Of a stretch of DNA of 64,000 bases, positions 9,654 through 43,178 are shown in pieces; within the stretch, counting starts at the first letter, position 1, and the number at the start of each line of letters is the position of its first letter. The notes under the pieces are model-generated. The model was not told where the DNA came from, made no database searches, and saw only the letters and a program-made list of their open reading frames with translations. The position numbers and the translations under genes are program-made. The DNA is from Verrucomicrobiales bacterium (GTDB lineage: Bacteria > Verrucomicrobiota > Verrucomicrobiia > Limisphaerales > UBA11358): assembly GCA_028712475.1 (NCBI GenBank), contig JAQTQB010000006.1:1-64000 (forward strand), in the 5' to 3' direction.

Positions 9654-10664
9654 TTAGATGTTGTGAGTGACGGCCACGACGGGGACGTTTTTGTTTTCCC
9701 AGACGCGAACCCAATTCGCGGCCAAGGCCAGTTCAGCGTTGGTCGGATTCGCGCCGGCCACGCTCGCGCTGGTGAATTTGACACCGCGAGGATGAAGGAT
9801 GAAACGGCGACGGTTGACCAGGAATGTGTCGCTGTTCAGCGCATCACGCGCTGTTTCGCAACCTTCCGTGCCGTGACCGCCTTCGACGGGCGCACCGTTC
9901 AGATCGGCGAAGCCCGTGCCGAACGAACCCATGCCGAACAGGTAGGTCGTATAGACCAAGCCGTCAGTCGTGCCCGCGCGCGAAGGGCAGCCATCATCCA
10001 CGATGACGCGACGGCCTTGGAACGTGCGGATTTGCGCTTCACCCTGGCTGTCCGGGATGAAGTCAATCAAGTCGAGCTTCCGCAACGCGGCCTCGACTGC
10101 CGAGTGCATCGCCACGGCCACGAGCCGGTCGCCACGGTCGCCCAAGCGTTGCGTTGCATCCACGAAGGTTGCACCGTTTAGCCGAGTGGAGGCAGTCTGT
10201 GCGGCAACGGATTCACTTTGGATTGCCAACAGGTTGCCCGCCATGCTCGCCGCGCCGAAGACGCCGGTGAGGGAGTTGATGAGCATGTATTGGTTCTGGC
10301 GGTTCCAATAATCGGCCATGAAGTTCGCCAGCGCCAGCGCCGGATCGTCACCAGCAACGACGGTTGCCAGATGATTCCACGACCACGCATTGCCGTCGTT
10401 GTGAATGCGGGCGATGTCCTGGTCAGCGACCAGTTTCGCCGGCACGAGCGGTGCCGAGTCGGAAAGCGGCTGGCGGTTGCCAGTCAGATCATTCCAATGA
10501 GGCATGTTGACTTGTGTGCCGCCGAGGCTGGCACGTTCGTCATAGTCCGGCGTCCGCACGACGATGCCGGATTGGAACAGGTCGGATTTCTCCGCCGTGC
10601 GCTGAAGGACATAGCCAGCGAATTGCGCTGGGACGATGATGTCTGCAAGTTGTGTCTTTGCCAT
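9654..10664 (-). CDS. Major capsid (coat) protein
   Basis: 336 residues resembling the coat-protein family of HK97-fold phages found beside DUF4055 portals: it opens AKTQLADIIVPAQFAGYVLQ and has the long N-terminal helix region, central LAVAMHSAVEAALRKLDLIDFIPDSQG (P-domain spine) and a C-terminal HPRGVKFTSAS. It should form the icosahedral shell. Order portal-scaffold-coat on one strand is the standard head cassette. No separate prohead protease is seen, as in P22-type systems that use a removable scaffold. The start ATG is 25 bases after the scaffold gene stop. Confidence 0.85.
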   Translation of the reverse strand: MAKTQLADIIVPAQFAGYVLQRTAEKSDLFQSGIVVRTPDYDERASLGGTQVNMPHWNDLTGNRQPLSDSAPLVPAKLVADQDIARIHNDGNAWSWNHLATVVAGDDPALALANFMADYWNRQNQYMLINSLTGVFGAASMAGNLLAIQSESVAAQTASTRLNGATFVDATQRLGDRGDRLVAVAMHSAVEAALRKLDLIDFIPDSQGEAQIRTFQGRRVIVDDGCPSRAGTTDGLVYTTYLFGMGSFGTGFADLNGAPVEGGHGTEGCETARDALNSDTFLVNRRRFILHPRGVKFTSASVAGANPTNAELALAANWVRVWENKNVPVVAVTHNI

Positions 10665-11451: not shown

Positions 11452-12969
11452 TTATTGGTTTTTCGCCGCTGCCGGAGGCGTTGTTGCGGCGGGGGTAGTG
11501 CCACCATTAGGAAGACCCCCGGTCGGATTTTCACGACCGTTTTGGCTGATAAGATTTTTCTCCTCACTGTCCGTGCGTCCCGTTGGCAGGACTTCACCTT
11601 TGCGGAACAGATCGAACATCGTGGCCTGACTGATGGCTCCAGCCTGCCAGGCAGAGACGATGGCGGTCAGTTCCAAGCTGGTCAGACCTTTGGCGGTGAA
11701 GTCGGTGTTAATCAGCAGCAGCACCAAATCTTCACTGACATCTTCCGGGAATTGTTCGGTGCTGTTCCACCAGTAAACCCAGCGGAGGACTTGGCTGATG
11801 GAATCAGACACGGACAAAGCCAGTGTCATCAAGATGCTGTTTTCACCGGCTTGACGCAGCTCGATGGCATCAGCGGTTTCACCGACACGTTTGGTGTCTT
11901 CCAACATGCGGGAGCCAAGCACAGCCATCAGCCGTTCATCACGATCTTGGGCATTTTCAAACGTGGACAACCCATGGCCTTTGAATTCCAAAAATCCAGC
12001 CACGGCACCAACCGTGTCCGATACCCAAGCCGTGCTGCTGCCGATACGAAGTTCAGTCGTCTTGTCGAAGCCAGAAACCCAGGCGGTGGGCAGAGCAGTG
12101 AAATGCAAACCATGCTTGTAGTCAGCATCCAGCCGGTAGTGATCCAGATTGACGGAAATAATGTCGGCCAAAGGCATTTTGTCCACGTCGGGCAGGGAGT
12201 TGCGTGGACCGTGAAACACAAACGGAATCAGCGGCAGCGGTTTGCCGAGACGGAGCGGCACACGACTTTCTTGCAATTTCCATTCCAATTTACCATGTTT
12301 GGATTTCCGTTGCCCGTTTGCTTGGTGGCCGCCCGCAAGGATCCAAAGTTCGACAACGTAACGTGTGCCGCCATCGGCCAGCGATTCCAGCTTCAACACC
12401 CGGATGGTTTCAGTTTGTTCCAAAACAAACGGATCGTCACCATGGGGGCCGTCCGCAAGGACTTCGCGCAGGGCAATCAGCGTGACCACGTTTCGACCGT
12501 TGATGCGTTGCGTCTGCCAGTTCAAAATATCTTCGGCCACATAGCGGACAACGTAGGCACGAGATTCACTGTCAGATTGCCAGTCAATCAGCGTGCCACA
12601 CCGGCCCACGGCGAGAATTTCACCGACGACACCCTTGCAAAAAGTAAAAAGTGAAGTCCCCATCAAATCCACGTCATCAGTGAACACACGAATGGCACCA
12701 CCGACGCCAGCCTGACGGTCGGGCAGTTTGACTTCGGGATCACGGCGAAAGAGCAGCCCAAGGAAACCATCGCAGGTGCGGCTCGTGGCGTTGAAAAAAC
12801 AGGCGCGGGATTTGTAGCCGAGATATTCATTGTCCGATTGCGAGTCGAGACGCGGCAGATATTTTACACCAGCGGATTTTACGGCATCCTCACCCGCGAT
12901 GACATCACGGGCGCGGAGCCAGGCCGGGAGGCTGGCGTCGTAATCAGGATGTGTGGAGTTGACCGGCAC
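11452..12969 (-). CDS. Phage portal protein (DUF4055-type)
   Basis: 505 residues matching the DUF4055 group, which serves as the portal in many podo- and siphoviruses. The N-terminus (HPDYDASLPAWLRARDVIAGEDAVK, then YLPRL) is the family signature; the C-terminus is an Ala/Pro/Gly-rich tail. Twelve copies should form the vertex ring through which DNA enters and leaves. It heads the head cassette on the minus strand, with roughly 3 kb of mostly non-coding, palindrome-rich DNA and a few small genes separating it from terminase. Confidence 0.85.
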   Translation of the reverse strand: MPVNSTHPDYDASLPAWLRARDVIAGEDAVKSAGVKYLPRLDSQSDNEYLGYKSRACFFNATSRTCDGFLGLLFRRDPEVKLPDRQAGVGGAIRVFTDDVDLMGTSLFTFCKGVVGEILAVGRCGTLIDWQSDSESRAYVVRYVAEDILNWQTQRINGRNVVTLIALREVLADGPHGDDPFVLEQTETIRVLKLESLADGGTRYVVELWILAGGHQANGQRKSKHGKLEWKLQESRVPLRLGKPLPLIPFVFHGPRNSLPDVDKMPLADIISVNLDHYRLDADYKHGLHFTALPTAWVSGFDKTTELRIGSSTAWVSDTVGAVAGFLEFKGHGLSTFENAQDRDERLMAVLGSRMLEDTKRVGETADAIELRQAGENSILMTLALSVSDSISQVLRWVYWWNSTEQFPEDVSEDLVLLLINTDFTAKGLTSLELTAIVSAWQAGAISQATMFDLFRKGEVLPTGRTDSEEKNLISQNGRENPTGGLPNGGTTPAATTPPAAAKNQ

Positions 12970-13876: not shown

Positions 13877-14179
13877 TTACGCCGCCACCAGCACTTTGAC
13901 TTCCCGTTCCAAGCGCAGTCCCAACTTGTCAGACATGATTTCCAAGTCGTAATGCGATTGCAGGTTTAGCCAGAATTGCGCCGACATTTTGAAAAACCGC
14001 CCCAAACGCAAGGCCGTGTCCGCCGTGATTGCCCGTTCACCCTTCACAATTTCGTTGATTCGGCGCGCGGGCACGCCAATGTCTTTCGCCAGCCGGTATT
14101 GGCTCAAGCCCATCGGCTTTAGAAAATCCTCTTCCAGAATTTCGCCCGGCGTGATGTTTTCCAGCAATTTGCTTTTCAT
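13877..14179 (-). CDS. higA: HigA-family antitoxin
   Basis: 100 residues of the addiction-module antidote HigA family: it opens with the family-typical TPGEILEEDFLKPMGLSQYRLAKDIGVPARRINEIVKGERAITADTALRL, an XRE helix-turn-helix in which SQYRLAKDIGVPARRINEI is the HTH. It neutralises HigB by direct binding and represses the operon through palindromic operators. The toxin gene lies upstream (higB first), the usual order for this family, with six bases between the genes. Confidence 0.92.
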   Translation of the reverse strand: MKSKLLENITPGEILEEDFLKPMGLSQYRLAKDIGVPARRINEIVKGERAITADTALRLGRFFKMSAQFWLNLQSHYDLEIMSDKLGLRLEREVKVLVAA

Positions 14180-14185
14180 AGAATT

Positions 14186-14464
14186 TTAATGGTAATCCAC
14201 AATTTCCACTTCGTGTGCGCCCGATTCCCAGCGGAAACATATCCGCCATTGATCGTTGATGCGGATGCTATGCTGTCCGGCGCGTCCGCCTTTTAATGCT
14301 TCCAGCCGGTTGCCCGGTGGCACCGCCATGTCCAGCAGTTGCGTCGCAGCCTGTAATTGCAATAGCTTCCGCCGGGCGGTGCGTTGGATGTCGGTTGGCA
14401 GTCGTCGCGACACCTGGCCCCGGAATATCTTTTCCGTCTCCGCACATGCGAAGTTTTCAATCAT
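14186..14464 (-). CDS. higB: HigB-family toxin (RelE superfamily mRNA interferase)
   Basis: 92 residues from ATG 14464, the normal HigB length; the upstream extension to 14503 is rejected. Family features are the start MIENFACAETEKIFRG, the segment RKLLQLQAATQLLDMAVPPGNRLEALKGGRAGQHSIRINDQWRICFRW and the end VEIVDYH. HigB cleaves mRNA on the ribosome. The pair sits in a region otherwise without genes and probably serves to stabilise the element. TATA-like ACTATATTTACC just upstream (14510-14521) may contain the promoter. Confidence 0.92.
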   Translation of the reverse strand: MIENFACAETEKIFRGQVSRRLPTDIQRTARRKLLQLQAATQLLDMAVPPGNRLEALKGGRAGQHSIRINDQWRICFRWESGAHEVEIVDYH

Positions 14465-14769
14465 TCTGCCCACCACCATAACGCACCGTGTTATTAACGT
14501 CAAGCGTTACTATATTTACCATCATCCGCCGGCAATTTTTGCGTTTCGGCAATTCGTGCGTCGTTTGTAATTCGACACAGGCAGCCAGGTGAAGTTGTGA
14601 GCCGTGGATAATGCGAATGTTTTTTGAAATCCGTGCGCCCTCGAAAGACAAAGTTAGTTCGCGATGCTCAATAGATAAATTAGTTCGCGCTTCGTTCCTG
14701 ATTCACTATGCGCTCAACAATGACGAACGCGCCACCCACTCACGGTTTCCATTGACGAATGCCATGTGG

Positions 14770-14898
14770 CGCGTGCGCGGACGCCTGACGCTCATGCCCG
14801 TGCAGCCCGCTAACGCGGTCTGCTCCGGGCACCGGCACGCCATCTTTGGTTAGTCCTAACGTCACCCTCGGCGTGCCTTTCGCTACCCCGCGCACGCG
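14770..14898. repeat. Branched inverted-repeat structure E
   Basis: An outer 11-bp perfect stem (14770-14780 with 14888-14898) encloses two hairpins. 14796-14830 has nested GCCCG/CGGGC, GCAG/CTGC and CCGC/GCGG stems around TAAC. 14834-14877 has GGCACGCC/GGCGTGCC outside and GTTAG/CTAAC inside. Together they make a three-way junction. Confidence 0.7.
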
Positions 14899-15390
14899 GC
14901 GGCCGTCGCAGGTTATTGAATGGTTTTCATGCCATCCAACCGTTGCTGGTTGGCGGATGATTTTAGGCGCGGGGTCAGGCATTGAATCCTCGTCGCTTCG
15001 CTCCTCGTCGGGGAAAAGCAGGACAGCCCGGCGTCAGCGAGCCGACACTTGCGCTTGGTCGGGGACAGGCGCAAGCGCCGAACCCACTCCCGCGCGCCAA
15101 GTATCGGCACGGTTCCGACGCGCCCGATGACTGACTCGACATTTTCCGCCCGCTCCATTCGCTGCCGCACTCTGCTACACCGATTGCGCAGGATGCTCTC
15201 GCTCATTCCGACGGTCGCAAACCGGCGAGACAGTCAAAAAACGTCGGCGCGTCCCGAAGGATTCCAAAGGCCGCGAGACTTCGTCCGGCCAAGGCGCAGC
15301 ATTACGGCGCGAGGCTCCGCCTGTCGCCGAGGACAAAGCATTAGCCCGCGATGCTACGCACGGGCAAGACGACGGCAATAGTCGTGAGAT

Positions 15391-15449
15391 CGGTCATTTC
15401 TGCACCGCCTTCATTTCGCAAGCTACATTGCAGCGGACAGAAACGACCG
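15391..15449. repeat. Inverted repeat D
   Basis: 15391-15402 (CGGTCATTTCTG) pairs with 15438-15449 (CAGAAACGACCG) at 11 of 12 positions around a 35-base loop. Confidence 0.6.
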
Positions 15450-15473
15450 AACTCACTCCGAAAACAAATTTAG

Positions 15474-15582
15474 TCTGACACCACGGCGGCAGGCTGCGTG
15501 CAGTTCTGCCGAGCGCTACCAAATACGAAGGCAAACATCGCGTCGCAGCCCGCGCACTACGCTCTGCCGTCGTGGAGTCAGA
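15474..15582. repeat. Inverted repeat C
   Basis: 15474-15492 pairs with 15564-15582 at 17 of 19 positions, with a second inner stem GGCTGCG (15492-15498) to CGCAGCC (15544-15550). The two mismatches leave the stem mostly intact. Confidence 0.65.
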
Positions 15583-15634
15583 TAGATTGGCTTCGCGCTG
15601 GCGCGGCGAAGCCGGAAACGAACCCATCGGCTTC

Positions 15635-15955
15635 GCGGCGGAATTGGCATGAAGGAACTGCCGCACGCTACGCTTCTCACTTCGTTGCGAGGCTGGGCGT
15701 GCGGCTTTGCTTCCGGGATGGCACACAACACACATTGTCCGTTTGGTCGTTCAAAGTTCACTCCCACCTTAATTCTTTTCGCGCCGACAACTCCCCGCGC
15801 GCGGGACCCTTCGGCGCGGAATTAAGGTCAGACAATGTGGCGTTGTGTGCCATCCCGCCGCTGCACTGTCACGCTGACTGCTAATCCGCACCTTCGCGCT
15901 CGTGCGGGCAGTCATCGCGCCAGTTGGCGGGCATCCTTCATGCCAATTCCGCCGC
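15635..15955. repeat. Giant nested inverted repeat B (321 bp)
   Basis: Six arm pairs share one centre near 15799. 15635-15656 with 15934-15955 (22 bp, perfect); 15657-15667 with 15901-15912 (one bulged base); 15714-15729 with 15842-15857 (16 bp, perfect); 15732-15739 with 15831-15838 (8 bp); 15766-15774 with 15820-15828 (9 bp); 15780-15787 with 15811-15818 (8 bp). A side hairpin 15660-15668/15697-15705 competes with one stem. This cannot be chance and is the most extended structure in the window. Confidence 0.9.
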
Positions 15956-16216
15956 TCCGCCTCTCATGCAGCCAGTAGAGTTTGCTCGCTACGCTCGAAT
16001 GGTTGACAGAATTTTTGTGTCGGCAGCTTCGTTTTCAAGTCCGGTTTTTTCTGCTCGCCGTTTCTCTCCGTCGCCCTCACGGCGTCGCCGACTGCACCAG
16101 CCCGCCCGCTCGTGGCTCCTTCTGAAGAGCACTTCCACGGGGGAGGGCTGGCGGCTCCGCTTTTTCGTGAAGGGCGACGGACAGAAGACGCACAGCAGAG
16201 CAGTAAAAAAAAGACT

Positions 16217-16645
16217 ATGAAAACTACATCACAAAAAAAATCGGGACTCGGGAGCAGATCCGCACAGTTGAGCAGCACAAACACACCGGAAGCGCAGAGC
16301 GCAGTTGCGCCCGCAGCCGTTGAGAAGAAAGACAATCGCTTGCCGATTGACACCGAGGCGCGGAAGAAAAACCGCACCTTGCCCACTCCAAAAGTTTTGG
16401 AGCTTTTGAAAACCAGCAATCCGGGTTTGTTCAATCTCGCCGAGGTTGTCGGCAAGTGGGTTTGGGTGACGTTCCGCGAGACGCCCGCGCCGGAGTTGCG
16501 GCAGATTTTGGCGCAACTTGGCTTTCACTGGAATCGTGAGCGGCAGGCGTGGCAGCACCCTTGCGGCGCATTTCGTTTGCGCGGTTTCCAAGACCCGCAC
16601 GAAAAATATGCCAGCTACTTTCCCGCTGACAACAAGACCGCCTGA
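16217..16645 (+). CDS. Hypothetical plasmid/phage-type protein
   Basis: 142 residues from ATG 16217, chosen because a purine-rich AAAAAAAAG leader precedes it and the upstream frame is in palindromic DNA. The N-terminal half is a low-complexity Ser/Ala/Lys-rich tail; the C-terminal half has a small folded unit, GKWVWVTFRETPAPELRQILAQLGFHWNRERQAWQHPCG, a motif (WVWV...LGF.WN..R.AW) seen in many small mobile-element proteins of unknown function. First of four plus-strand genes. Confidence 0.65.
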   Translation: MKTTSQKKSGLGSRSAQLSSTNTPEAQSAVAPAAVEKKDNRLPIDTEARKKNRTLPTPKVLELLKTSNPGLFNLAEVVGKWVWVTFRETPAPELRQILAQLGFHWNRERQAWQHPCGAFRLRGFQDPHEKYASYFPADNKTA

Positions 16646-16691
16646 CACCAACGGGGCGCGGTGACAGCGCGCCCGTTTTTCACCACACACC

Positions 16692-16889
16692 ATGAAAAGG
16701 AACAAACGTCGCTTGCCGTTGCCGCAGCACGAGTTCGGATTTACGCCGGACACGTTCAATTTGTTCGCCGAGGTTTCGCTGGACGGTGAGCGCATCACCA
16801 GAGAGCAGGCCGAGGCTGCACAGCGACGCCGCGAGGCGGAGGCAGGGCAGGCCGCGTTTTTTCACACCGAGGAATTTTGCCATGACTGA
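16692..16889 (+). CDS. Small hypothetical protein
   Basis: 65 residues: basic start MKRNKRRLPLPQHEFGFTPDTFNLF, then a Glu/Arg/Ala-rich helix (REQAEAAQRRREAEAGQ). The preceding gap includes GGGGCGCGGTGACAGCGCGCCCGTTTTTC (hairpin plus T-run, 16653-16680), a possible weak terminator or attenuator after the upstream gene. Overlaps the next gene by eight bases, so coupled translation is likely. No recognised family. Confidence 0.6.
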   Translation: MKRNKRRLPLPQHEFGFTPDTFNLFAEVSLDGERITREQAEAAQRRREAEAGQAAFFHTEEFCHD

Positions 16890-17118
16890 TTTACACAAGA
16901 CCATCCGCCGCCGTTCGCGTGACCAGTTCGCGCACTATCGCAGGCGCATTGTCGTTTCACTTGAACCCGGAGACGTGATCGGGATGCGGCTTGAGCGCAC
17001 CCGCACCACCTACCGCGCACCGCTCGCCAGTGTGTTCCGCACTTTGGCCGACTGGCACGCACGCGCCGAGAGCAAGGCCAAGCGGGAAGCCCGCAAACTT
17101 AAACGCTTGAATCACTGA
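16882..17118 (+). CDS. Small hypothetical protein
   Basis: 78 residues from ATG 16882, rich in Arg: MTDLHKTIRRRSRDQFAHYRRRIVVSLEPGDVIGMRLERTRTTYRAPLASVF..., with a lysine/arginine tail. The middle (IVVSLEPGDVIGMRLERTRTTYRAPLASVF) is a beta-strand-like unit common in small plasmid genes of unknown role. A nucleic-acid-binding function would fit the charge but is not shown. Lies between two coupled neighbours. Confidence 0.6.
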   Translation: MTDLHKTIRRRSRDQFAHYRRRIVVSLEPGDVIGMRLERTRTTYRAPLASVFRTLADWHARAESKAKREARKLKRLNH

Positions 17119-17122
17119 CACC

Positions 17123-17533
17123 ATGAACACAAACGAATCACCATTCGGCCCCGTCATTTACAGCTACACCAGAGCGCAGGCCGTCGCCGACGGCGTGCAA
17201 GTTGATGTTTCAAAAGTTGCCGCCGAAGCGGGCATCCGCTTTCCGGTATTTCTCACGCGCACCGTTTTTGATGCGTTCGTGACCGTGCCGGAAGGCGTGA
17301 CCGGACAGGATGAAGCCGGACGCCTTTGGGATATTGTCTGGATGCTCCGTTTCGCCATCCTTCGCAGCCGCCCAGGTGCGGCAGGTGCAGCTTGCACCCG
17401 CATCCCGGTTGCGTTCTATGTCCGCAACGACAACCGCGCAGCGCGGCTTGTCAAACTCATCGCAACTTGCGGCGCACTGGACATTGACGACCCGCAGCCC
17501 GCTATCACCGTGATGATGCCCGACGAAGATTGA
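17123..17533 (+). CDS. DUF6573-family protein
   Basis: 136 residues: FGPVIYSYTRAQAVADGVQVDVSKVAAEAGIRFPVFLTRTVFDAFVTVPEGVTGQDEAGRLWDIVWMLRFAI is the signature of DUF6573, a family common on plasmids and integrative elements of many phyla. Function is unknown. It starts four bases after the upstream stop and ends the plus-strand set, followed within 25 bases by a rho-independent terminator. Its plasmid associations, together with opposite orientation to the phage genes, suggest this set was acquired separately. Confidence 0.8.
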   Translation: MNTNESPFGPVIYSYTRAQAVADGVQVDVSKVAAEAGIRFPVFLTRTVFDAFVTVPEGVTGQDEAGRLWDIVWMLRFAILRSRPGAAGAACTRIPVAFYVRNDNRAARLVKLIATCGALDIDDPQPAITVMMPDED

Positions 17534-17699: not shown

Positions 17700-19121
17700 T
17701 CAAAAGCCGCGCAACTTCCGTTGCGTGACCGCGCGCGCTTTCGTCGCCACCAGGTAGCGCAGTGAATCCGCCGCGTCGTCGCCGCCGATGCCGTCCTCGT
17801 CGGCGTCAATTTTCAAAACATCTTCGGGCCGGTTCGGATCATGTTGCAACGCCGGCAAAGTTTCCAGCAGCCGCCCGCACCGCTTGTGAATGAAAAGTGT
17901 CGGACGAATCCCGGCCTCGACATCGCCGAACCGCTGCAAAATTTCCGCCCAGCCGTTCACGCGGTCGGTGTTCGCGCAGCGCAGTGAGATTCCAAGTTTC
18001 GCATATTGCGCGGCAATCGTTGTCCCGTCGCTCTGGCGTGAAAACACATCCGCGCCGGCCACAAAGCGGGCCAGCGCCCGCCCGCCACCGTTCACTTCTT
18101 CATTCTTCATTCTTCCTTCTGCATTCAAGCCGTGCCGCGCCAGCATCGCCTTGACCGCCCCCGCGTGACGTTGTGGCAGCCACAGACGTTCCGCGTGTTC
18201 GTCCACGATGAAAATGTTTCCATCGCCATCGCGACAGCCGAGCAAAACAGCGGTGTAATGCGCAAAACCGTAATCCAGCGCCGCAAACCATTCCACCGCC
18301 CGCGTGTCGTCGAAATCAGACAGGGCGTGAACCTCGCGGCGAAAGTTGGTGAAGTATTGGCCGGCGGCAATATCCCAATCGCCGTCGAGGTATGCTTTGC
18401 GCATCCAACCGGTGTAAGACTGGAGCGTGGCTTTGTATTCGGCATCAACAAACTGGTTGTCATCCACCGTCACCTGGACATGGCGCGTGGTGGTTTCGCG
18501 TTTTTCCAGCCACGGCACGATGATCATGCCCCGATACCACTGATGCCCCACGCCGCCGGGATTTGTGTCAAAATACATCCTTGGACGCCAGTTCGGTTTG
18601 CTCGTGCGCAAACAGCCGCGAATCCCCTGCAATCGGGAAAAAGGCAGTTGCGTGGCCTCGCCGAGATTGATCACGTCGTATTCAATCCCCATATACTTCT
18701 CGATGTCGCGTTCGTCCTTGTAATTGCCAACGATGACGCGTGAGCCGTTCGGGAAGTTCAATTCACTCCGTTGCGCCCGCCATTCATGCCGCAGTTTCGA
18801 CAGCAGTTTGCGGCGCATGTCGTCAAATTGCTCGGCGGCGCCCTTCAGGATTTTGCGCAAAATCAGCACCTTCAGCCCCGGCACGCGCTGGCAGTCGTCC
18901 GCGAAAATCTGGCAATAGACCCCGTGGGTTTTTGCCGAGCCTTTGCCGCCCCCGGTTGAAATCATCTTCGGGCCGTTGGCCGAATCCGCCTCCCGGCAAT
19001 ACGCGGCGAACTTCAATTGCTTTGGCTGCAACAGCAATCCGGCGCGGACGAAGTTTTCCATCTGCGCCTTCGGGCAGCCGGCGCGGCGACCGGCCAGAAA
19101 ATAGCGTTCCCACGGCGTCAT
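17700..19121 (-). CDS. Terminase large subunit
   Basis: 473 residues with the two-domain TerL layout. The ATPase has a Walker-A-like STGGGKGSAKTH (about 55-66), Walker B YDVINLGEATQL (about 149-159) and the coupling motif FDTNP (about 184-188). The nuclease domain begins with LDYG (about 282-285), then FIVDEHAE (about 304-311) and a C-terminal acidic DADEDGIGGDDAADSLRYLV. It should pump DNA into procapsids and cut it. A dispersed ATTCTTCATTCTTC repeat (18097-18127) has been taken into the frame, adding residues about RMKNEEVNGGG between nuclease strands, so activity might be affected. Confidence 0.9.
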   Translation of the reverse strand: MTPWERYFLAGRRAGCPKAQMENFVRAGLLLQPKQLKFAAYCREADSANGPKMISTGGGKGSAKTHGVYCQIFADDCQRVPGLKVLILRKILKGAAEQFDDMRRKLLSKLRHEWRAQRSELNFPNGSRVIVGNYKDERDIEKYMGIEYDVINLGEATQLPFSRLQGIRGCLRTSKPNWRPRMYFDTNPGGVGHQWYRGMIIVPWLEKRETTTRHVQVTVDDNQFVDAEYKATLQSYTGWMRKAYLDGDWDIAAGQYFTNFRREVHALSDFDDTRAVEWFAALDYGFAHYTAVLLGCRDGDGNIFIVDEHAERLWLPQRHAGAVKAMLARHGLNAEGRMKNEEVNGGGRALARFVAGADVFSRQSDGTTIAAQYAKLGISLRCANTDRVNGWAEILQRFGDVEAGIRPTLFIHKRCGRLLETLPALQHDPNRPEDVLKIDADEDGIGGDDAADSLRYLVATKARAVTQRKLRGF

Positions 19122-31298: not shown

Positions 31299-34200
31299 TC
31301 AGCGCGGATAGCGGTTCTTCGCGATGTCCAGCGACCGCTCGACAATCGCGTCCATGTCTTCCGTTGTCAGCGCGATGCCATGCTCCGCCTTCAAGTCATA
31401 GAGCAGATCGTCAATCGCGTTGCGCATTTCATTTTGCACGTCCAGGTTTGTGACCCAATCCACCACGCGCCGGCTGGCGATGGCGTCGTCAATTCGCACG
31501 GCGATCTCCGCCGCCACGACCGCCAGCGAATCTTCCGGCAGCCCCAGCCGCCCAACGACCTCGTTCACCACGCCGTAAAACGCTTTTGCCACGTCGCGAT
31601 CGCGCAGGATTTCCGGCAGCTTGTCCCCGGTGCGGCTCAATACCGATTCCATGACTTCCGTGACGCGGTTCAAATAATCTTTTTCACTGATGCGTTGCCG
31701 CCGGTAGTCGTCAATCGTGTCCTGCAAAATTTTTCCGAACCGCCGGTAAAACACCGGGTCTTCGTCCATCTTCTCCGTGATCGTCCGCGCCGTCCGGTGC
31801 GCAATCGTGTCCGCTTTCGACGCCGCGCTCTCCAGCTTTTCCACTTCCTTCTTGAACGCATCGCGTTCAAAGATGTTCACCGGTGGCGTCACCTGCTGGA
31901 TGCCTTCCGAATGGACGTGCGTATCAATCAGCTTTTGCACGCGCTTTTCGTAATCCTTGTAATCGACTTCTTCCGCGTAGCGCTGCTTCACCGACACGCG
32001 CAGCTTGAGGAAAAACGCCAGGTCGGTTTTGTAGCGCTGGACGGTTTTCTCCGGTGTCTCGCGCAGGAATTGCATCGTCGCCAGCGCCACGCCCAGCGTG
32101 CGGGCATAGGCGTTCAGCTTTTCGTAAAATTGTCCGCGCACGTCCTCGTCACCCAGCAGCCGTTCATATTTCTCCTTGTCCTTTGAACCCTTCACCGTTT
32201 TGAACACGTCCCACAGCTCGGAATGTTTTTGCGGCAGGCGTTTGATTTCATCGGCCACGTCCGTCACCGTGCCGGCGATTTCGTCTTTTTCAAATCCGGG
32301 CAGCGCCGCGTAAATGTCCATCGCCTCGCCCAGCTTTTGCAGCACGCCGTAGTAATCCATGATGAAGCCGAAATCCTTGCCGCCGGCCAGCCGGTTCACG
32401 CGGGCGATGGCTTGCAACAGATTGTGCTCCACAAACGACCGGCACAGATACAACACGGTGTTTTTCGGCGCGTCAAAACCCGTCAGCAGTTTGCTGACGA
32501 CGATCAGGATTTCCGGCTCCGGTGCGTGCTTGAATCCGTTGATGACTTGTTCCAGGTATTGTTTCTCTGTGCCGTATTTCGCCATCATTTTTTTCCAGAA
32601 CGCCCGCACTTCTTCCGTGTCCACTTCATACACGTCCTCTTGTTCGTCGCGCGTGTCCGGCGCGGAGATAACCACTTCGCTCGTCACCTTGCCGAACTCG
32701 TCCAGATATTTTTTGTATTTCAGCGCCGTCGCCTTGTTGGGCGCGGCCAGTTGCGCCTTGAACCCGGTGCCCTGCCAGTTCTGCGAAAAATGTTCGCTGA
32801 TGTCGAACGCCGCTTCATACACCTTGCGGTCGGCCTTGTTCAACTGGTCCGCCGAGGCGAATTTCTTTTTCAAGTCCGCCCGTTGCGCGTCGCTCAAGGG
32901 TTTCGTCACCACTTCAAACCATTTGTCTATCGCCTTTTGATCCACCTGTTGCAGCACCAGCCGGCCTTCATACAGCAGCGGCACCACCGCCTTGTCGCGC
33001 ACGGCCTGGTCAATCGTGTAGGCCGGCTCGATGTAGCCGCCGAATTTGTTCGCCGTCTTGTGCTCCTTTTTCATCAGCGGCGTGCCGGTGAAGCCGATGA
33101 AACACGCTTTCGGTAAAACCTTTTCCATCTTCGCGCCCGTCTCGCCATACACGCTCCGATGGCTTTCATCCACCAGCACGAACAAATTCGGCGAATCATT
33201 CTTGAACTCGCCCGCGTCCACCGCCGACGCAAATTTGTCTATGACCGTCGTGATGACGTTCACCTTGCCCTCGGTGATCAGTTTGGTCAGATGCTTGCCG
33301 GTTTGCGCCTGCACCGGTTCCAGCCCGCAATGATGGAACGTCTTTTTGATTTGCTCGTCCAGATCCACGCGGTCAGTCACCAGCACAATGACCGGATTCG
33401 GGATCTCGCGTTCCAGCGCCAGCGATTGCGCCAGCATCACCATCGTCAAAGATTTGCCCGACCCTTGCGTGTGCCACACCACGCCGCCCAGCCGCCGGCC
33501 ATCCGCGCCGGGCTTGCGCACGCGGGCGAGGATGCTGTTCACCGTGAAGTATTGCTGGTAACGGGCAATCTTCTTTTCGCCCGCGTCATACACGATGAAA
33601 CGCCACGCCAGTTCAATCAGCCGTTCCGGCCGGCACAGGCTGTAAAGCGCCCGATCCTGTTCCGTCACTTCGCGGCCTTCGGCTTCCAGATCGTCAAAAT
33701 AGGTCCGCACATAGGCGTAACGCTCGGCGAACAGCCGGTCTTTTTGCGCCCGGCTCAATGGCCGGTTCACCAGCGCTTGAATCTCTTTCGTCACGTCCTC
33801 CAGCTCGCGCCACTTCGCCCAAAACGCCGCCGCCGTTCCCGTCGTCGCGTAGGCCGCATCGTTCGCCGCCACGCCGAGCAGCAGTTGCGAGAACACAAAC
33901 AGTTTCGGGATGTAATCATCCGCCTGGTTGCGGATATGCTGGCTGATGGCTTGATCCAGCGGGTCTTTCATGTCCGACCGCTTGCACTCGATGATGCAGA
34001 GGGGAATTCCATTTACGAAGAGGACAACATCCGGGCGACGCGTCGCCTTGCTGGCCGTTTGCTCGACTTCAAATTCCTCGACGACGTGAAACACGTTGTT
34101 CGCCGGGTTGCGCCAGTCAATGAAGTTGAGCGTGAAACTTTTTGTGTCGTCCTCGACGGTTTGTTCCATCGCCTTGCCCAGCACCAGCAGGTCGTAAATT

Positions 34201-34484
34201 TTTTCGCTCGTCCGCACCAGCCCGTCGAACGGCACATCCTTGAGCGCCAGGATTGCCGACTGGATGTTCGCTTCCGAAAATTCGTATTGCTTGCCGCGAT
34301 AATTGATGCGGTTCAGCTTCCGCAGTTGTTCCGCGAGGATGTTTTCCAACAGCACGTTGCCCAGCTTGCCCTTGCGCTCCAGAAAAACTTCCTGCGGGCG
34401 CAGGTAGGTGAAGCCGAGGTTTTGCAGCAGTTGCAACGCCGGCACCTGCGAAACGTGATCTTCTTGGAAGGACGGCTTGTTCAT
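31299..34484 (-). CDS. hsdR: Type I restriction enzyme R subunit
   Basis: 1061 residues. The N-terminal nuclease core shows RPDVVLFVNGIPLCIIECKRSD (PD-(D/E)XK) and the translocase motor has Walker A HTQGSGKS, DEAD-box-like LVDESHRSVYG and motif III GFTGTPL, plus the later helicase segments (ALKYKKYLDE, VVSKLLTGFDAP, QAIARVNRL). The C-terminal helical region contacts the methyltransferase. It cleaves unmodified DNA after translocation. The gene order hsdM-hsdS-hsdR is normal, with 25 bases to hsdS. Confidence 0.97.
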   Translation of the reverse strand: MNKPSFQEDHVSQVPALQLLQNLGFTYLRPQEVFLERKGKLGNVLLENILAEQLRKLNRINYRGKQYEFSEANIQSAILALKDVPFDGLVRTSEKIYDLLVLGKAMEQTVEDDTKSFTLNFIDWRNPANNVFHVVEEFEVEQTASKATRRPDVVLFVNGIPLCIIECKRSDMKDPLDQAISQHIRNQADDYIPKLFVFSQLLLGVAANDAAYATTGTAAAFWAKWRELEDVTKEIQALVNRPLSRAQKDRLFAERYAYVRTYFDDLEAEGREVTEQDRALYSLCRPERLIELAWRFIVYDAGEKKIARYQQYFTVNSILARVRKPGADGRRLGGVVWHTQGSGKSLTMVMLAQSLALEREIPNPVIVLVTDRVDLDEQIKKTFHHCGLEPVQAQTGKHLTKLITEGKVNVITTVIDKFASAVDAGEFKNDSPNLFVLVDESHRSVYGETGAKMEKVLPKACFIGFTGTPLMKKEHKTANKFGGYIEPAYTIDQAVRDKAVVPLLYEGRLVLQQVDQKAIDKWFEVVTKPLSDAQRADLKKKFASADQLNKADRKVYEAAFDISEHFSQNWQGTGFKAQLAAPNKATALKYKKYLDEFGKVTSEVVISAPDTRDEQEDVYEVDTEEVRAFWKKMMAKYGTEKQYLEQVINGFKHAPEPEILIVVSKLLTGFDAPKNTVLYLCRSFVEHNLLQAIARVNRLAGGKDFGFIMDYYGVLQKLGEAMDIYAALPGFEKDEIAGTVTDVADEIKRLPQKHSELWDVFKTVKGSKDKEKYERLLGDEDVRGQFYEKLNAYARTLGVALATMQFLRETPEKTVQRYKTDLAFFLKLRVSVKQRYAEEVDYKDYEKRVQKLIDTHVHSEGIQQVTPPVNIFERDAFKKEVEKLESAASKADTIAHRTARTITEKMDEDPVFYRRFGKILQDTIDDYRRQRISEKDYLNRVTEVMESVLSRTGDKLPEILRDRDVAKAFYGVVNEVVGRLGLPEDSLAVVAAEIAVRIDDAIASRRVVDWVTNLDVQNEMRNAIDDLLYDLKAEHGIALTTEDMDAIVERSLDIAKNRYPR

Positions 34485-34509
34485 ATTTCAGCTTTCAGGT
34501 TTCAGCGTT

Positions 34510-35757
34510 TCAGATTTTGACCCGGACTTCTCCCGTCAAAAGTTTTTGCATCAGTCCGCGCTTTTGCTCCTTCAACGCTTCCAGTTGCTTTTCCAGCAGC
34601 TTGATTTCTTCGTCGCAGGTGTTCAGCACGGCGGCAATCCGTTTTTGTTCCGGCACCGTTGGCAGAAACACTTTGATCAGCGCAAATTCATCCCACCGTA
34701 GCGCGCCGCGCCGCGCGATGGAACCGCTCGTGTTCACTTCAAAAATGTGCCGGTAAAGTTCGGTCTTGATCAGTTTCCAGAAAAATTCATGGTCAACGCC
34801 CGGCTTCGTTCGGAAAACGGTATACATCGGACTTATCAGCGCCGCGTCGTGCAGGTTTTGGTAGCCGATGGAACCTTCTTCAATGTGGTTGGTGGCGTAG
34901 GCAAAATCGCCGCGCTCGACAATCCGGTAAGTGCTCGTGTCCTCGCTGAAAATCCGTTTGCCGAAATACTCCAGCGAGTTCACCAAACCGCGATACTTGG
35001 TGCAGGACAGCACCGGCAATTCCCTGCCGCCGCCATTTTTTTTGCCGGCCTCATCAGCAATGTCGCCCATGTGAACCTGTGACCAATCTGCTGGAAAGTT
35101 TCCGAAGCGGGTTTTAACCTTTTTGTCGCTTCGGACAAATTCTTTGAACCGCGTCTGTCCCGTGACAAGTTGCTGCATCAGTCCCCGCTTGCGTTCCACC
35201 TTCGCCGCCACGAAGGATTCCAATTTCAAAATTGCGTTGTTCCATGACTCAATGATTGATGAAATCTTTTCCTGCTCTTCCAATGGCGGACGCAACAAAC
35301 GAATGTGCTGGGCATCGCGCCAATAGATTGCGGCAACACTTGTCGTCCCAGTTGCAATTGCCCGAAGTTGCATTATAGCACGGCGCGAATTCAGAATTAG
35401 ATTGCCAAAACCTTTCGTGAAGCCTCTGCTTTCGTCAAAATCAATTCGCAAGATATTCGAGTTAAAAACAGCTCGCGGTAATTCTTCACGCCACATTGCC
35501 ACCTTGCCCACCAGGTCGAGCGTGTTGCGTGTGTTGAAAAGAATGTCCCCTCGTTTAAGAACATCGTCGGAGAAATAATCCGCACCCTCTGGCATCCGTT
35601 CGACCGTTGCCAGTTGAATTCTTCCACGCCCAAGGTTGCCCATTTTTATTACTGGAATCCCAAGATAAGTTCCGTTGCATTCGTAATTGCCGCCAAGCCG
35701 CGTGGCCGCCGTGGCTTCACCAAGCGTTACTTGCTTCCAGCCTGAAGGCAAATTCAT
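34510..35757 (-). CDS. hsdS: Type I restriction-modification S subunit
   Basis: 415 residues with two target-recognition domains, each followed by a conserved spacer helix (EEQEKISSIIESWNNAILKLESFVAAKVERKRGLMQQLVTGQTRFKEF and PEQKRIAAVLNTCDEEIKLLEKQLEALKEQKRGLMQKLLTGEVRV). TRD1 is about 1-170 and TRD2 about 215-360. It sets the bipartite DNA target for both HsdM and HsdR. The start overlaps hsdM by four bases. Confidence 0.96.
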   Translation of the reverse strand: MNLPSGWKQVTLGEATAATRLGGNYECNGTYLGIPVIKMGNLGRGRIQLATVERMPEGADYFSDDVLKRGDILFNTRNTLDLVGKVAMWREELPRAVFNSNILRIDFDESRGFTKGFGNLILNSRRAIMQLRAIATGTTSVAAIYWRDAQHIRLLRPPLEEQEKISSIIESWNNAILKLESFVAAKVERKRGLMQQLVTGQTRFKEFVRSDKKVKTRFGNFPADWSQVHMGDIADEAGKKNGGGRELPVLSCTKYRGLVNSLEYFGKRIFSEDTSTYRIVERGDFAYATNHIEEGSIGYQNLHDAALISPMYTVFRTKPGVDHEFFWKLIKTELYRHIFEVNTSGSIARRGALRWDEFALIKVFLPTVPEQKRIAAVLNTCDEEIKLLEKQLEALKEQKRGLMQKLLTGEVRVKI

Positions 35758-37244
35758 ACCCCAAGTTCCTTCAAATAACCGGCCATCTGTTTCCGCACGC
35801 CGGCCAGTTGGTTTTCCAAGTTGTCAATTTCCTTTTGCACGGCCTTGAGGTTCACCGGTTTTTCCGGTTCAAACGTGTCCACATACCGCGGAATGTTCAG
35901 GTTGAAATCGTTCTCGGCAATTTCCTCCGGCGTGGCGCGGTAAGCGTATTTCTCCACCGTCTTGAACGCCTTGTAGGTCGCCACAATTTTAGCAATGTGT
36001 TCGCTGCCCAGCTTGTTCTGGTTCGTGCCTTCCACATATTCCCGGCTGGCATCAATAAACAACACGTCCTTGGTTTTCTTGCCCTTGTTGAAAATCATGA
36101 TCGTCGCCGGGATGCCGGTGCCGAAGAAAAGTTTTTCCGGCAAACCAATCACGCACTCCAGCGCATTTTCCTCAATCAATGCTTGGCGAATCCGGCCTTC
36201 ACCGCCGCCCCGGAACAGCACACCATGCGGCGCGACGACGCCCACCTTGCCGCTGCCCTCGACGGCGGTTTCAACCATGTGGCTGATGAAGGCATAATCG
36301 CCCTTGCTCTTGGGCGGCACGCCGCGATGAAACCGGTGGAACTTGTCCGCGTCCGCCGTCTCCGCGCCCCACTTGTCCAGCGAGAACGGCGGATTGGCCA
36401 CGACGGTATCAAACTTCATCAGCGCATCTTTCTCGATGAGCTTCGGATTGTTGATGGTGTCGCCCCATTCAATCCGCGCCGCGTCCTTGTTGTGGACGAG
36501 CATGTTCATCCGGCACAGCGCCCAAGTGCTGCCGTTCATTTCCTGCCCGTAGAGGGAATAATCATTGTCGCCCACCTGGTCGCCCACCTGGATCAGCAGC
36601 GAGCCGGAACCGCACGTCGGGTCACAGATGCGGCTGCCTTTTTTGGGCGCGAGCAGTTTCGCCAGCAGTTCCGAGACTTCGCCCGGCGTGTAGAACTCGC
36701 CGCCCTTTTTGCCGGCATCGCTGGCGAACCGGCCAATTAGATACTGGTAGGTGTTGCCGATAATGTCCTCCTTGCCGACGCGGGACGGCCGCAAATCCAT
36801 TTCTTCGCCCGCAAAATCTTCCAGCAAATCCTTGAGCCGCTTGTTGCGCTCCTTGGTCTGGCCGAGGTTGGCTTCGGAATTGAAATCAATGTTGCGGAAC
36901 ACGCCTTCCAACTTGGCCTTGTTCGCATCTTCAATCTGCTCCAGCGCCACGTTGATCAGCTCGCCGATGTTCGCCTCATTGCGCTTGGCGTAAAGGGTGT
37001 AATAGTCGCAGCCGTCCGGCAGCACAAAGCGTTCGCGCGCCAGCCGCCGCGCCACGCGCTCCTTGTCGCCCTTGAACTCCTTGGCGTATTCCTCGCGCTT
37101 GTCTTTCCACACGTCAGACAGGTATTTCAGGAACAGCATCACGAGGATGTAATCCTTGTATTGCGCCGGGTCTATCGTGCCGCGAAACGTGTCACACGCC
37201 CGCCATGCCACGTTATTGATTTCGTCTTGGTTAATCGGTTTCAT
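35754..37244 (-). CDS. hsdM: Type I restriction-modification M subunit
   Basis: 496 residues from ATG 37244 (KPINQDEINNVAWRACDTFRGTIDPAQYKDYILVMLFLKYLSD). SAM-binding motif I appears as ICDPTCGSGSLL, preceded by the type-I-specific FYTPGEVSELLAKLL, and the adenine-methylation motif IV as NPPF. It should methylate adenine in the HsdS-selected target. The half-size S gene ends 22 bases upstream. Confidence 0.97.
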   Translation of the reverse strand: MKPINQDEINNVAWRACDTFRGTIDPAQYKDYILVMLFLKYLSDVWKDKREEYAKEFKGDKERVARRLARERFVLPDGCDYYTLYAKRNEANIGELINVALEQIEDANKAKLEGVFRNIDFNSEANLGQTKERNKRLKDLLEDFAGEEMDLRPSRVGKEDIIGNTYQYLIGRFASDAGKKGGEFYTPGEVSELLAKLLAPKKGSRICDPTCGSGSLLIQVGDQVGDNDYSLYGQEMNGSTWALCRMNMLVHNKDAARIEWGDTINNPKLIEKDALMKFDTVVANPPFSLDKWGAETADADKFHRFHRGVPPKSKGDYAFISHMVETAVEGSGKVGVVAPHGVLFRGGGEGRIRQALIEENALECVIGLPEKLFFGTGIPATIMIFNKGKKTKDVLFIDASREYVEGTNQNKLGSEHIAKIVATYKAFKTVEKYAYRATPEEIAENDFNLNIPRYVDTFEPEKPVNLKAVQKEIDNLENQLAGVRKQMAGYLKELGV

Positions 37245-37266
37245 GGTTGGTAAATGGTAGTTGGTT

Positions 37267-37857
37267 TCAAGTTGTCCGCGCACTGGATCGCCGCACCGCT
37301 TCCAGCATCAGGCCGTCAATCAGCACGCGACGGCGCTCGCGGATTTGCCCGAGCAGGTGTTGCTCTTGCAGGTTGAGTTTTTGGATGCCGGCAATGTGGT
37401 TCTGCATCTCGATGCTCGGCAGCGGCACTTCCAGCGCAGCAAACGCCGACATCGGCACGAACGGCACCGCCGATCCACGCCGCAGGGCGCGGATTTTTTC
37501 CTGTGTCTCCGGCAGGTTCAGAAACCAGGTCAGGTAATCAGGGAAGGCCACCTGTCCCGCCGTCCGCAAAACGAACAAATGCGGCGCGGCCACCACGTCG
37601 CCGCAGTCGGCGGCAAATGTCGCCGCCTCATTCCGCACGCCGCGCCCGATGAACAGCACGTCGCCGAAGTGCAACTGGTGGTTGCCGGGACCGCCGGGCA
37701 GGACTAAATGCGTCTGCACGTCCTCGACTACGCCCGCGTCCGCGCGAACGTCTCCCATTTGCACGAGCCGGCAGTTTCCGCGCTCCACACGGTCAATGCG
37801 CCCCCGGAACGGATAGCCCGTTCGGATTTGCGCCAGTGTGCCAAGTTTCTCAATCAT
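37267..37857 (-). CDS. Half-size S-subunit homologue (single TRD)
   Basis: 196 residues from ATG 37857. A single target-recognition-like domain (IRTGYPFRGRIDRVERGNCRLVQMGDVR...VLFIGRGVRNEAA...VPFVPMSAFAALEVPLPSIEMQNHIAGIQKLNLQEQHLLGQIRERRRVLIDGLM), one conserved helix only. This is a genuine short S-like protein, not a truncated copy of hsdS, since the sequence is different. It is the first gene of the RM operon. Half-S proteins can dimerise to act as a whole S, giving an alternative specificity, or act as regulators. Confidence 0.85.
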   Translation of the reverse strand: MIEKLGTLAQIRTGYPFRGRIDRVERGNCRLVQMGDVRADAGVVEDVQTHLVLPGGPGNHQLHFGDVLFIGRGVRNEAATFAADCGDVVAAPHLFVLRTAGQVAFPDYLTWFLNLPETQEKIRALRRGSAVPFVPMSAFAALEVPLPSIEMQNHIAGIQKLNLQEQHLLGQIRERRRVLIDGLMLEAVRRSSARTT

Positions 37858-38110: not shown

Positions 38111-38368
38111 ATGAAACTAAAAAACCTCGTTCCGCAACGCTTCCGCAACCGCCTCGTCCGCCAGTTTGGCCGGGCCAGGCTCATCCGCCTGCCCAACGGC
38201 CAGCACGAACTGGTCGGCGGCACTGACGCCGACCGCGCCAACGCCTTTGAATGGGCGTCGCTCTTCGCGCATGAAATCGTGTTCACGCATTTTCACCGCG
38301 AGGAACCCGCTCGCCGCCGCCCGCGCCAGCCGTGGTTCGCGCCCCGGCTGCAACCCGTTTGCCCGTGA
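38111..38368 (+). CDS. Small hypothetical protein upstream of Y-family polymerase
   Basis: 85 residues from ATG 38111 (MKLKNLVPQRFRNRLVRQFGRARLIRLPNGQHELVGGTDADRANAFEWASLFAHEIVF...). A basic N-terminus and a compact acidic/aromatic middle; the C-terminus is Arg/Pro-rich. It is followed after 83 bases by the polymerase gene, so it may be part of the same operon. No known family. An inverted repeat GGACA-GCCAA-TGTCC (about 38069-38083) upstream may be an operator. Confidence 0.6.
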   Translation: MKLKNLVPQRFRNRLVRQFGRARLIRLPNGQHELVGGTDADRANAFEWASLFAHEIVFTHFHREEPARRRPRQPWFAPRLQPVCP

Positions 38369-38451
38369 CGCTGTCACTTGTGAACAACTCGGCATGGACG
38401 GACGCGGGCGATGCGGTAGCGTGTCTGGCTGGCCCGTGCGGCCCGCACCCG

Positions 38452-39759
38452 ATGAGCGCCCGCAACAACCGCATTTTGCACATTGACGGAGATTCATTCT
38501 TCGCCAGTTGCGAAATCGCGCTCGATTCCAAGCTGGAGGGGCGGCCGGTGTGGGTTGGCGGCGGGCGGCGCGGCGACGGCATCGTGATCGCGGCCAACCG
38601 GCTGGCAAAAAAATACGGCATCAAAACCGGCACGGCCTGTTTCGAGGCGAAACGGCTTTGCCCCAGCGGCGTCTTGTGCAAACCGCACTACGACGCCTAC
38701 CGCGAGTTGTCGCGGCAGATGTTCAAAATTCTGGAGGAATACGCGCCCACGCTCGTCCCGTATTCGATTGACGAAGGTTTTCTGGATTTCTCCACGATGG
38801 AGGATTGCGTCTGGCGCAACACCACGCCGACGGATTATGTCCAAGGCATCCGCGAGCGTATCAAAAAGGAAGTCCGGTTGCCGGTGACGGCGGGGCTGGC
38901 GAACTCCGCCAAACTCGCCAAGCTCGCCACCGACGCCGCCAAAGGCGTCGGTTTCCTCGAAGTCCCGCCGGGGCGGGAAAAAGATTTTTTGAATGACCGT
39001 CCCGTGTCGGAAATGTCCGGCATCGGCAAGAATCGGGAACGATCCATCAAAGCGCTTGGCGCGCTGACGTTCGGCCATGTGGCGAAACTGCCGTCCATGC
39101 TGCTAAAGCAGAAGTTCGGCATTTGGGGGCAACAGCTTTGGCTGTTTGCGAACGGCCAATGGAACGAGCCGCTGGTTTTGGAGATCAAAGACCGCACGAC
39201 GATTTCCAGCAGCACCACGCTCCCGCAGGATGAACCCGACTACGAGGCGGCGCTGACCTTCATGTTGAGCGAATCCACGCGGTTGACCGGCCAGTTGCGC
39301 CGGGAGCAGATGCAGGCGCGGGAATTTAGCGTGGCCGTCCGGTTCACGAATTTTACCGAAGTCGGCACCAGCCACCGATTCAAGCATCCGCAGTTTCTAA
39401 ATTCCGTCATCAACGAGGTGATGGAGCAGATGTTTCGCGGCATCATGGCCGGCCAGCGGTTGCCAGTGCGACAGATTCGGATTGCAATGTTCAATCTTGA
39501 ACGGCTGGACACGCATCCGACGCTTTGGGGGCGGACGCAGGAAGAACGCTGGGGCGCGCTGGACGACGCCACGCATGAATTGAATCAGCGGCTTGGCAAA
39601 ACCGCGCTGATGACCGGCGCGCAACTGGCGTTGCGGCACATTGACGAATCGCAAAAGCAGCCCAAGGCCAAATGCCCGTTCACGCCGCAGCGCGAAATGA
39701 TAACCAAACTTTGGGGCGCGGACGGCCCGGCCAAACCAGTCCAAGGGACTTTATTGTGA
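38452..39759 (+). CDS. Y-family DNA polymerase (DinB/UmuC-like)
   Basis: 435 residues from ATG 38452. Catalytic residues are in HIDGDSFFASCE (D12) and in YSIDEGFLDFS (D107, E108). The finger and thumb regions follow (TAGLANSAKLAKLATDAAKGVGFLEV, GIGKNRERSIKALGALTFGHVAKL), and the little-finger domain continues to about residue 390. This is the error-prone lesion-bypass type (DinP/UmuC). It is longer than DinB only by a short tail. Placed in the element's plus-strand set with an HMCES protein gene downstream. Confidence 0.92.
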   Translation: MSARNNRILHIDGDSFFASCEIALDSKLEGRPVWVGGGRRGDGIVIAANRLAKKYGIKTGTACFEAKRLCPSGVLCKPHYDAYRELSRQMFKILEEYAPTLVPYSIDEGFLDFSTMEDCVWRNTTPTDYVQGIRERIKKEVRLPVTAGLANSAKLAKLATDAAKGVGFLEVPPGREKDFLNDRPVSEMSGIGKNRERSIKALGALTFGHVAKLPSMLLKQKFGIWGQQLWLFANGQWNEPLVLEIKDRTTISSSTTLPQDEPDYEAALTFMLSESTRLTGQLRREQMQAREFSVAVRFTNFTEVGTSHRFKHPQFLNSVINEVMEQMFRGIMAGQRLPVRQIRIAMFNLERLDTHPTLWGRTQEERWGALDDATHELNQRLGKTALMTGAQLALRHIDESQKQPKAKCPFTPQREMITKLWGADGPAKPVQGTLL

Positions 39760-39802
39760 TCGCACCAATGCAACTTTGTTCGCCGCCGGTTGTTTCAAGA
39801 TT

Positions 39803-40078
39803 ATGATAAAGCTCTTAAATTTTTTGCTCGAAATTGAAAGTTGGTGCCGCAGCCAGCCAAGGAAGTTTTGGCGTCATTGCTGGAATCTGTTCCGATTTAT
39901 GGCCGTGTGGATCATCGGCAAAATGATTTTGGACGGATTGCAGCAGCATTTCCCGCTTGAGCATTACACTTTGATTTCAATTTGCTTCTACATTGTGTTG
40001 GCCGTTGCGGTCGGTTGGTTTGTCCGGCGTGCCTATGTCGGCATGGAGCGCGACCTGGACTTTTACACGGAAGATTGA
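39803..40078 (+). CDS. Small membrane protein
   Basis: 91 residues from ATG 39803: two hydrophobic segments (about FMAVWIIGKMILDGL and TLISICFYIVLAVAVGWFV), with a basic N-terminal helix and a C-terminal acidic DLDFYTED. No recognised family. It follows the polymerase gene by 43 bases and precedes the HMCES gene by 24 bases on the same strand. Confidence 0.65.
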   Translation: MIKLLNFLLEIESWCRSQPRKFWRHCWNLFRFMAVWIIGKMILDGLQQHFPLEHYTLISICFYIVLAVAVGWFVRRAYVGMERDLDFYTED

Positions 40079-40102
40079 GCCGCCGGGAATCGCCGTTCAT
40101 CC

Positions 40103-40810: not shown

Positions 40811-40892
40811 ATTATCACACGCCCTGGACAACGCCTGTCCATCCGAAAATTGTTTCCTTCGGATTTTCGTATTGTCCCGGCAGCCGGCGGAT

Positions 40893-43030: not shown

Positions 43031-43041
43031 CCCGCGATTAT

Positions 43042-43059
43042 GTCAGCAAAATGTCAGCA
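43042..43059 (+). promoter_or_regulatory. Putative integrase arm-type sites, right end
   Basis: GTCAGCA-AAAT-GTCAGCA, the right-end counterpart of 7284-7300, lies between the integrase gene and the tRNA copy of the att core. Another GTCAGCA pair at 42884-42902 lies inside the integrase gene. Confidence 0.55.
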
Positions 43060-43093
43060 AGTCAATAAAAACTCACAAAACCATTGCTAAATA

Positions 43094-43116
43094 TGGTGCC
43101 CACGACAGGACTTGAA
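43094..43116 (+). repeat. Attachment site, right copy inside tRNA-Leu
   Basis: Same 23-bp sequence as 7141-7163, here forming the 3' end of the tRNA gene (T-arm 3' strand, acceptor, CCA). The integration restores a complete tRNA, consistent with the intact gene seen. Confidence 0.9.
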
Positions 43117-43178
43117 CCTGTATGATTTTACTCACTAGAACCTGAATCTAGCGCGTCTGCCAATTCCGCCACGTGGGC
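43094..43178 (-). tRNA. tRNA-Leu (anticodon CAG)
   Basis: 85 nucleotides including an encoded CCA. The acceptor stem GCCCACG pairs with CGTGGGC, there is a long variable arm typical of class II tRNA, and the anticodon stem CTAGA/TCTAG holds the loop TTCAGGT with anticodon CAG (reads CUG, leucine). It is the integration target of the element. Confidence 0.95.

Follow-up and report, generated by a model that had tools for sequence, protein, structure and literature searches.

The 321-bp inverted repeat singled out by an initial annotation of this DNA is an optional domain, D2, of a large conserved element that precedes genes of Verrucomicrobia phages and other mobile DNA. The folded structure fills the non-coding intergenic region from ~14515 to 16228 (1.5–1.7 kb) of the 64,000-nucleotide stretch that was analysed, here called the window. 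The fold is conserved, the strand that folds is the minus strand, and the abutment to start codons is constant. There is about an even chance that the element is a new, large DNA structure, folded on the template strand, that drives or primes the expression of entry and anti-defence genes; the mode of action (transcription or priming), the enzyme and the timing are what we infer.

The palindrome and the element around it

The arms of the palindrome are as first described. The outermost pair, 15635–15656 with 15934–15955, matches at 22 of 22 positions, the pair 15714–15729 with 15842–15857 at 16 of 16, and the pair 15731–15739 with 15831–15839 at nine of nine; the remaining inner arms are near-perfect matches. 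The arms do not share one centre, as had been supposed. Their centres range from 15785 to 15799 because two side hairpins branch off, and D2 is a multibranched domain rather than a simple palindrome. The predicted fold of its minus strand has an energy of −203.6 kcal/mol, compared with a mean of −126.5 for shuffled sequences (z −13.2; 0 of 100 shuffles); z is −11.6 for the plus strand and −13.6 when D2 is folded with DNA parameters. The remark that no protein-coding origin is visible holds, since, of the 476 indels seen among homologues, only 142 have a length divisible by three. A coding origin was rejected on this ground and for want of a conserved frame.

The 321-bp unit is thus real as a long palindrome, but it is an optional branch, one of about ten domains, and is missing or replaced in some homologues. 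D1, about 200 nt beside orfA, is common to nearly all homologues, and the domain found most widely after it is D10; D2 and the other optional domains are lost or swapped as whole hairpins. Folded as DNA, D1 has a z of −8.1, and in its base helix the partner of the start-codon segment is GGACCTGAAAAC. The structures of D3 to D9 come mostly from a single consensus fold. Searches with Rfam covariance models returned no family at gathering score and nothing relevant at E values up to 10. GOLLD, ROOL, OLE, HEARO and other Rfam RNAs were accordingly set aside as identities, and named phage and plasmid records contain no similar sequence.

Features of the element and of its surroundings in the window
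Feature	Position	Strand	Description
D2, reported palindrome	15632..15960	-	22-bp closing helix, central hairpin 15714-15857, two side hairpins
D2 side hairpins	15660-15705 and ~15861-15930	-	
D1, universal core	16025..16228	-	~200-nt imperfect hairpin; 56-locus alignment, covariance model
D1 base helix		-	start-codon segment (GTTTTCAT.GTC) paired with GGACTTGAAAAC
T8 run (A8 on plus strand)	16205..16212	-	4 nt ahead of ATG
Small hairpin CGAGC(GTA)GCGAGC	15984..15997	-	loop c-GNA-g in most homologues
D3 hairpin	15590..15616	-	consensus fold
D4 hairpin	15474..15582	-	consensus fold
D5 hairpin	15384..15456	-	consensus fold
D6 hairpin, c-GTA-g triloop	15344..15365	-	consensus fold and loop survey
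D8 long imperfect hairpin	15120..15250	-	consensus fold
D9 hairpin	15030..15119	-	consensus fold
D10 far-end domain	14657..15013	-	loops alternate GAA/GCA and GTTA/GATA/GACA/GCCA
Direct repeat R1, CTGCTCAACTGTGCG	16261..16275	-	inside orfA
Direct repeat R2, CTGCTCTGCTGTGCG	16189..16203	-	5' arm of D1
Major capsid protein	9654-10664		
Portal	11452-12969		
HigBA toxin-antitoxin pair	13877-14503	-	between element and portal
orfA	16217..16645	+	142 aa; belongs to no known family; first gene beyond core
Remainder of divergent operon	16692-16889, 16885-17118, 17123-17533 (DUF6573)	+	
terL	17700-19121	-	
terS		-	beyond terL

The window contains a tailed-phage prophage in which the element sits between portal and terL. 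The divergent operon next to it consists of four genes (orfA, two small ORFs and DUF6573; 16217–17533, plus strand), and relatives keep terL, operon, element and portal in this sequence. No family and no sequence or fold match was found for OrfA, whose structural model has a pLDDT of 69.9. HigBA, extra to this order, occurs in the window and in one relative; among the relatives checked it is complete only in L032. The window also carries genes for Type I restriction-modification, a Y-family polymerase and a tyrosine integrase, as well as tRNA-Leu(CAG) (31299–37283, minus strand, and 38332–43178), and this tRNA gene is a probable attachment site.

Many genomes within the same genus have copies of the element, as a DNA search for relatives revealed. 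Searches with orfA yielded 59 genome contigs in addition to 13 viral ones, a collection biased toward orfA; contigs with close relatives carry the names Verrucomicrobia subdivision 3 or Limisphaerales. The D1 covariance model (R1) has matches, often more than one per genome, in 51 of the 293 genomes from the order (32 of 118 genera) and in 5 of 388 genomes drawn evenly across the phylum. The genome of the window itself holds a second core at a contig end, with a degenerate ORF behind it (G000:C4:337-469), and a shorter relative of the element ahead of an orfA homologue and RadC (L082; G000:C17, ~259–262 kb). Many assemblies (G020, G008, G013 and G014 contigs) break inside the element, as expected when a long repeat rich in hairpins has several copies.

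Selection on the fold and the strand that folds

Covariation, whose absence the initial annotation had named as grounds for refuting its proposal, is strong and exceeds a phylogenetic null in which the substitutions of each column were re-placed on the tree. Canonical pairs make up 88.3% in D1, 90.9% in D2 and 90.8% in D10, whereas the null maxima are 67.4%, 73.5% and 82.9%; double-change cells number 283 versus 107, 386 versus 137 and 131 versus 62, respectively. An R-scape-like scan of all column pairs gave seven significant covarying pairs in D2, all seven on the structure; in D1 this strict scan gave three such pairs, of which only one lies on the structure. The claim of a D1 fold is based on helix-level tests, namely the tree null and RNAalifold, which on its own alignment finds double changes kept in 20 of 28 pairs. 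Near the apex of D1, alignment columns 83 and 97 exchange A.A for G.G, a non-Watson-Crick change that is unexplained. The strong covariation supports a folded single strand.

The wobble pairs indicate which strand this is. At well-paired positions, G–T outnumbers A–C on the minus strand by about three- to six-fold (145:26, 108:28 and 136:37), and it follows that the minus strand is the folding strand. For the gene following D1, the minus strand serves as the template. Minus-strand RNA and minus-strand DNA both remain as candidates, but the result counts against a plus-strand structured mRNA leader, riboswitch-like, that would control translation of orfA. Such a leader might be expected to adjoin start codons and pair with them, as the element does. 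On the plus strand, however, the wobbles become A–C mismatches, for example at D1 pair 80–104 in 25 of 53 loci, and GNA loops are not enriched. The leader was rejected because the wobble asymmetry is wrong for it, and we regard it as very improbable.

Start codons and the genes that follow

D1 ends exactly at a start codon. The four-base spacing from an A-run (A8–9) to the ATG is kept in 54 of the 59 loci that have an A-run before the ATG, and the first ~60 nt of orfA belong to the nucleic-acid element. A 26-nt segment, GGGAGCAGATCCGCACAGTTGAGCAG, is identical in the window and in locus L107 and is translated in different frames; at the start of the ORF, third codon positions are conserved as much as first and second positions. 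Both observations point to selection on the nucleic acid, and the idea of a protein motif, an N-terminal "tag" on OrfA, was dismissed, the same DNA being read in different frames.

Cores precede unrelated genes: orfA, DUF6573, ArdC, DUF932 and an unknown gene ahead of RadC. The copies linked to ArdC, DUF6573, DUF932 and RadC were found by covariance model R1 alone, independently of orfA, and a core also stands ahead of ArdC on a viral contig. One operon has three tandem cores, with ParA, an N6/N4 DNA methylase and DUF6573, and a TrwC relaxase lies 4–8 kb away. Another contig bears a core and TrwC 6.5 kb apart together with a coupling protein and an integrase; the distance is 3.5 kb on a third, where the relaxase is broken by stops, and 21 kb on a fourth. 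Core and TrwC share a contig in these 4 cases, and many or most copies lie in prophages. Linkage of the core to MOBP-type relaxases was not seen.

The abutment to start codons of such varied genes suggests a role in gene expression or priming; it lends no support to the packaging or recombination role that had been entertained. A folded-DNA site for recombination or gene exchange, similar to attC, would explain the swapped genes, in that the same element precedes unrelated ones. It would also explain the direct repeats R1 and R2, which flank the start region and change in concert (at least 12 of 15 matches in 37 of 63 loci within loci, compared with 82 of 501 between loci). Yet the element is located at the 5' end of genes and many copies retain the conserved orfA–DUF6573 operon, so that such a site seems a distant prospect. 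The two repeats may instead be operators of a co-evolving protein, or alternative partners for the 3' arm of D1. A conventional promoter or terminator was rejected, nothing convincing being found against shuffles: the best sigma-70 −35/−10 scores in the folded arm, on the plus strand or in the antisense direction, were no better than those of shuffled sequences.

Loop types, mode of action and known systems

Hairpin loops closed by C–G, with GNA triloops or GNNA tetraloops, are unusually stable in DNA. On the minus strand, c-GNA-g loops number 486 (162 in shuffles, 123 for the plus strand), and c-GNYA-g loops 171 (74 expected), counts taken from phylogenetically related and hence non-independent loci. 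One D10 hairpin uses the loops GAA, GCA, GTTA, GATA, GACA and GCCA only, with GNRA in none of its 18 tetraloops. UNCG loops are not enriched in the element. Counting against a DNA-type reading, minus-strand GNRA loops are enriched too, about two-fold (153 versus 88 expected). Loops of RNase P RNA served as the control: in 20 related genomes this RNA has 65 GNRA loops, no GNYA loops and 17 GNA loops where 15.6 are expected, and its GU:AC ratio is 11.4, compared with 3.3–5.6 for the element.

There are precedents for DNA hairpins of this kind. Mini-hairpins of the CGCGAAGCG type are extraordinarily stable (PMC10527192), and promoters of the N4 virion RNA polymerase require a template-strand hairpin whose three-base loop is closed by C–G and has a 5' G and a 3' A (PMC4496689). 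Given these precedents and loop types that differ from those of RNase P RNA, there is good but not conclusive evidence, read from sequence, that the fold acts as DNA. Of the initial proposal, a structured RNA or a single-stranded-DNA element, the folded single strand is borne out, and loop types and gene context favour single-stranded DNA over RNA.

The main alternative is a new large non-coding RNA of the minus strand, of the GOLLD or ROOL kind or antisense over the divergent gene start, transcribed jointly with the late genes, terL through portal. The position between these genes, in their direction, is consistent with it, as are the excess of G–U over A–C and a fold that is large, covaries and comprises several domains, the peripheral ones optional. 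The loop comparison with RNase P RNA and the lack of UNCG enrichment argue against it, as do the failure to find a minus-strand promoter, a core that always stops at the start codon, the three copies in one operon, and some non-phage copies with less than 450 nt of non-coding room. On balance this alternative is rather unlikely; if it were correct, the element would define a large family of phage RNAs that is new and missing from Rfam.

The preferred reading is that of an expression or priming element, because a folded template strand that ends at the start codons of varied anti-restriction and establishment genes resembles single-stranded-DNA promoters. From the transferred strand, Frpo promotes expression of such genes (PMC11541004), and ArdC is a single-stranded-DNA-binding anti-restriction protein needed in the recipient (PMC7213743). 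In the proposed mechanism the element would act in cis. The minus strand would become single-stranded through conjugal transfer or replication, or would be extruded through supercoiling, and would fold into D1, a long, imperfectly paired hairpin that terminates on the start codon, with D2 to D10 as further folded domains in the phage versions. D1 might then mimic duplex DNA, allowing RNA polymerase or primase to start, and anti-restriction and establishment proteins could thereby be made early after entry.

Several observations count against a promoter. A sigma-70 consensus is absent at all suitable places, most copies reside in double-stranded-DNA prophages where single-stranded DNA is not obvious, relaxase linkage is limited to four contigs, and 1.4 kb of extra domains is more than a promoter requires. 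A folded signal for priming or transfer (ssi, single-strand origin or G4-type) would start complementary-strand synthesis, and the adjacent genes would just travel along. DNA-type loops, the T-run at the base and the relaxase linkage are compatible with such a signal, and a title cited in the source on Frpo presents it as promoter and primer site alike (PMC11541004); the fixed spacing to the start codons of many genes and the several copies within one operon fit expression better, and we consider the priming signal unlikely.

The expression element that we prefer could be folded DNA of an "ornate" multidomain type, 0.2–1.7 kb long and conserved across an order and its phages, with covarying DNA-specific structure. 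It would then be a large natural machine made of single-stranded DNA and would serve as a promoter, on the template strand, for both conjugative elements and tailed phages. This fuller proposal is tentative, and we lean against it at present. If the element is a single-stranded-DNA promoter, it would supply a large covarying family for testing whether such promoters exist outside the handful of plasmid and phage cases, and one switch would link the anti-defence genes of prophages with those of conjugative elements. The literature cited here describes no such promoter in Verrucomicrobiota.

Among the closest counterparts is the Frpo/ssi system (PMC11541004). In both, the next gene has the folded strand as its template, and a single DNA strand forms a duplex-like hairpin, as deduced for the present element from strand and loop type. 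Both stand ahead of anti-restriction, methylase and similar genes, with several copies per region and some near a TrwC/TraI relaxase. In contrast to Frpo, the element lacks a −35/−10 consensus in the stem, is much larger in phages and is found mostly in prophages; it is seen only in Verrucomicrobiota, and plasmid records give no sequence match. It is not claimed to be a Frpo. The large phage RNAs GOLLD and ROOL (PMC12286853) are alike in size, multidomain covarying fold and phage location, whereas the element has no Rfam match, has DNA-type loops and is tied to start codons of varied genes. The N4 virion RNA polymerase promoters (PMC4496689) are comparable in that they lie beside phage genes as hairpins of the template DNA strand whose triloops are c-GNA-g. 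In structure the likeness is confined to the loop, since N4 hairpins have 5–7 bp and the element has ~200 nt plus extra domains. N4 promoters also act on double-stranded DNA through supercoil extrusion, a further likeness to the mechanism proposed for the element.
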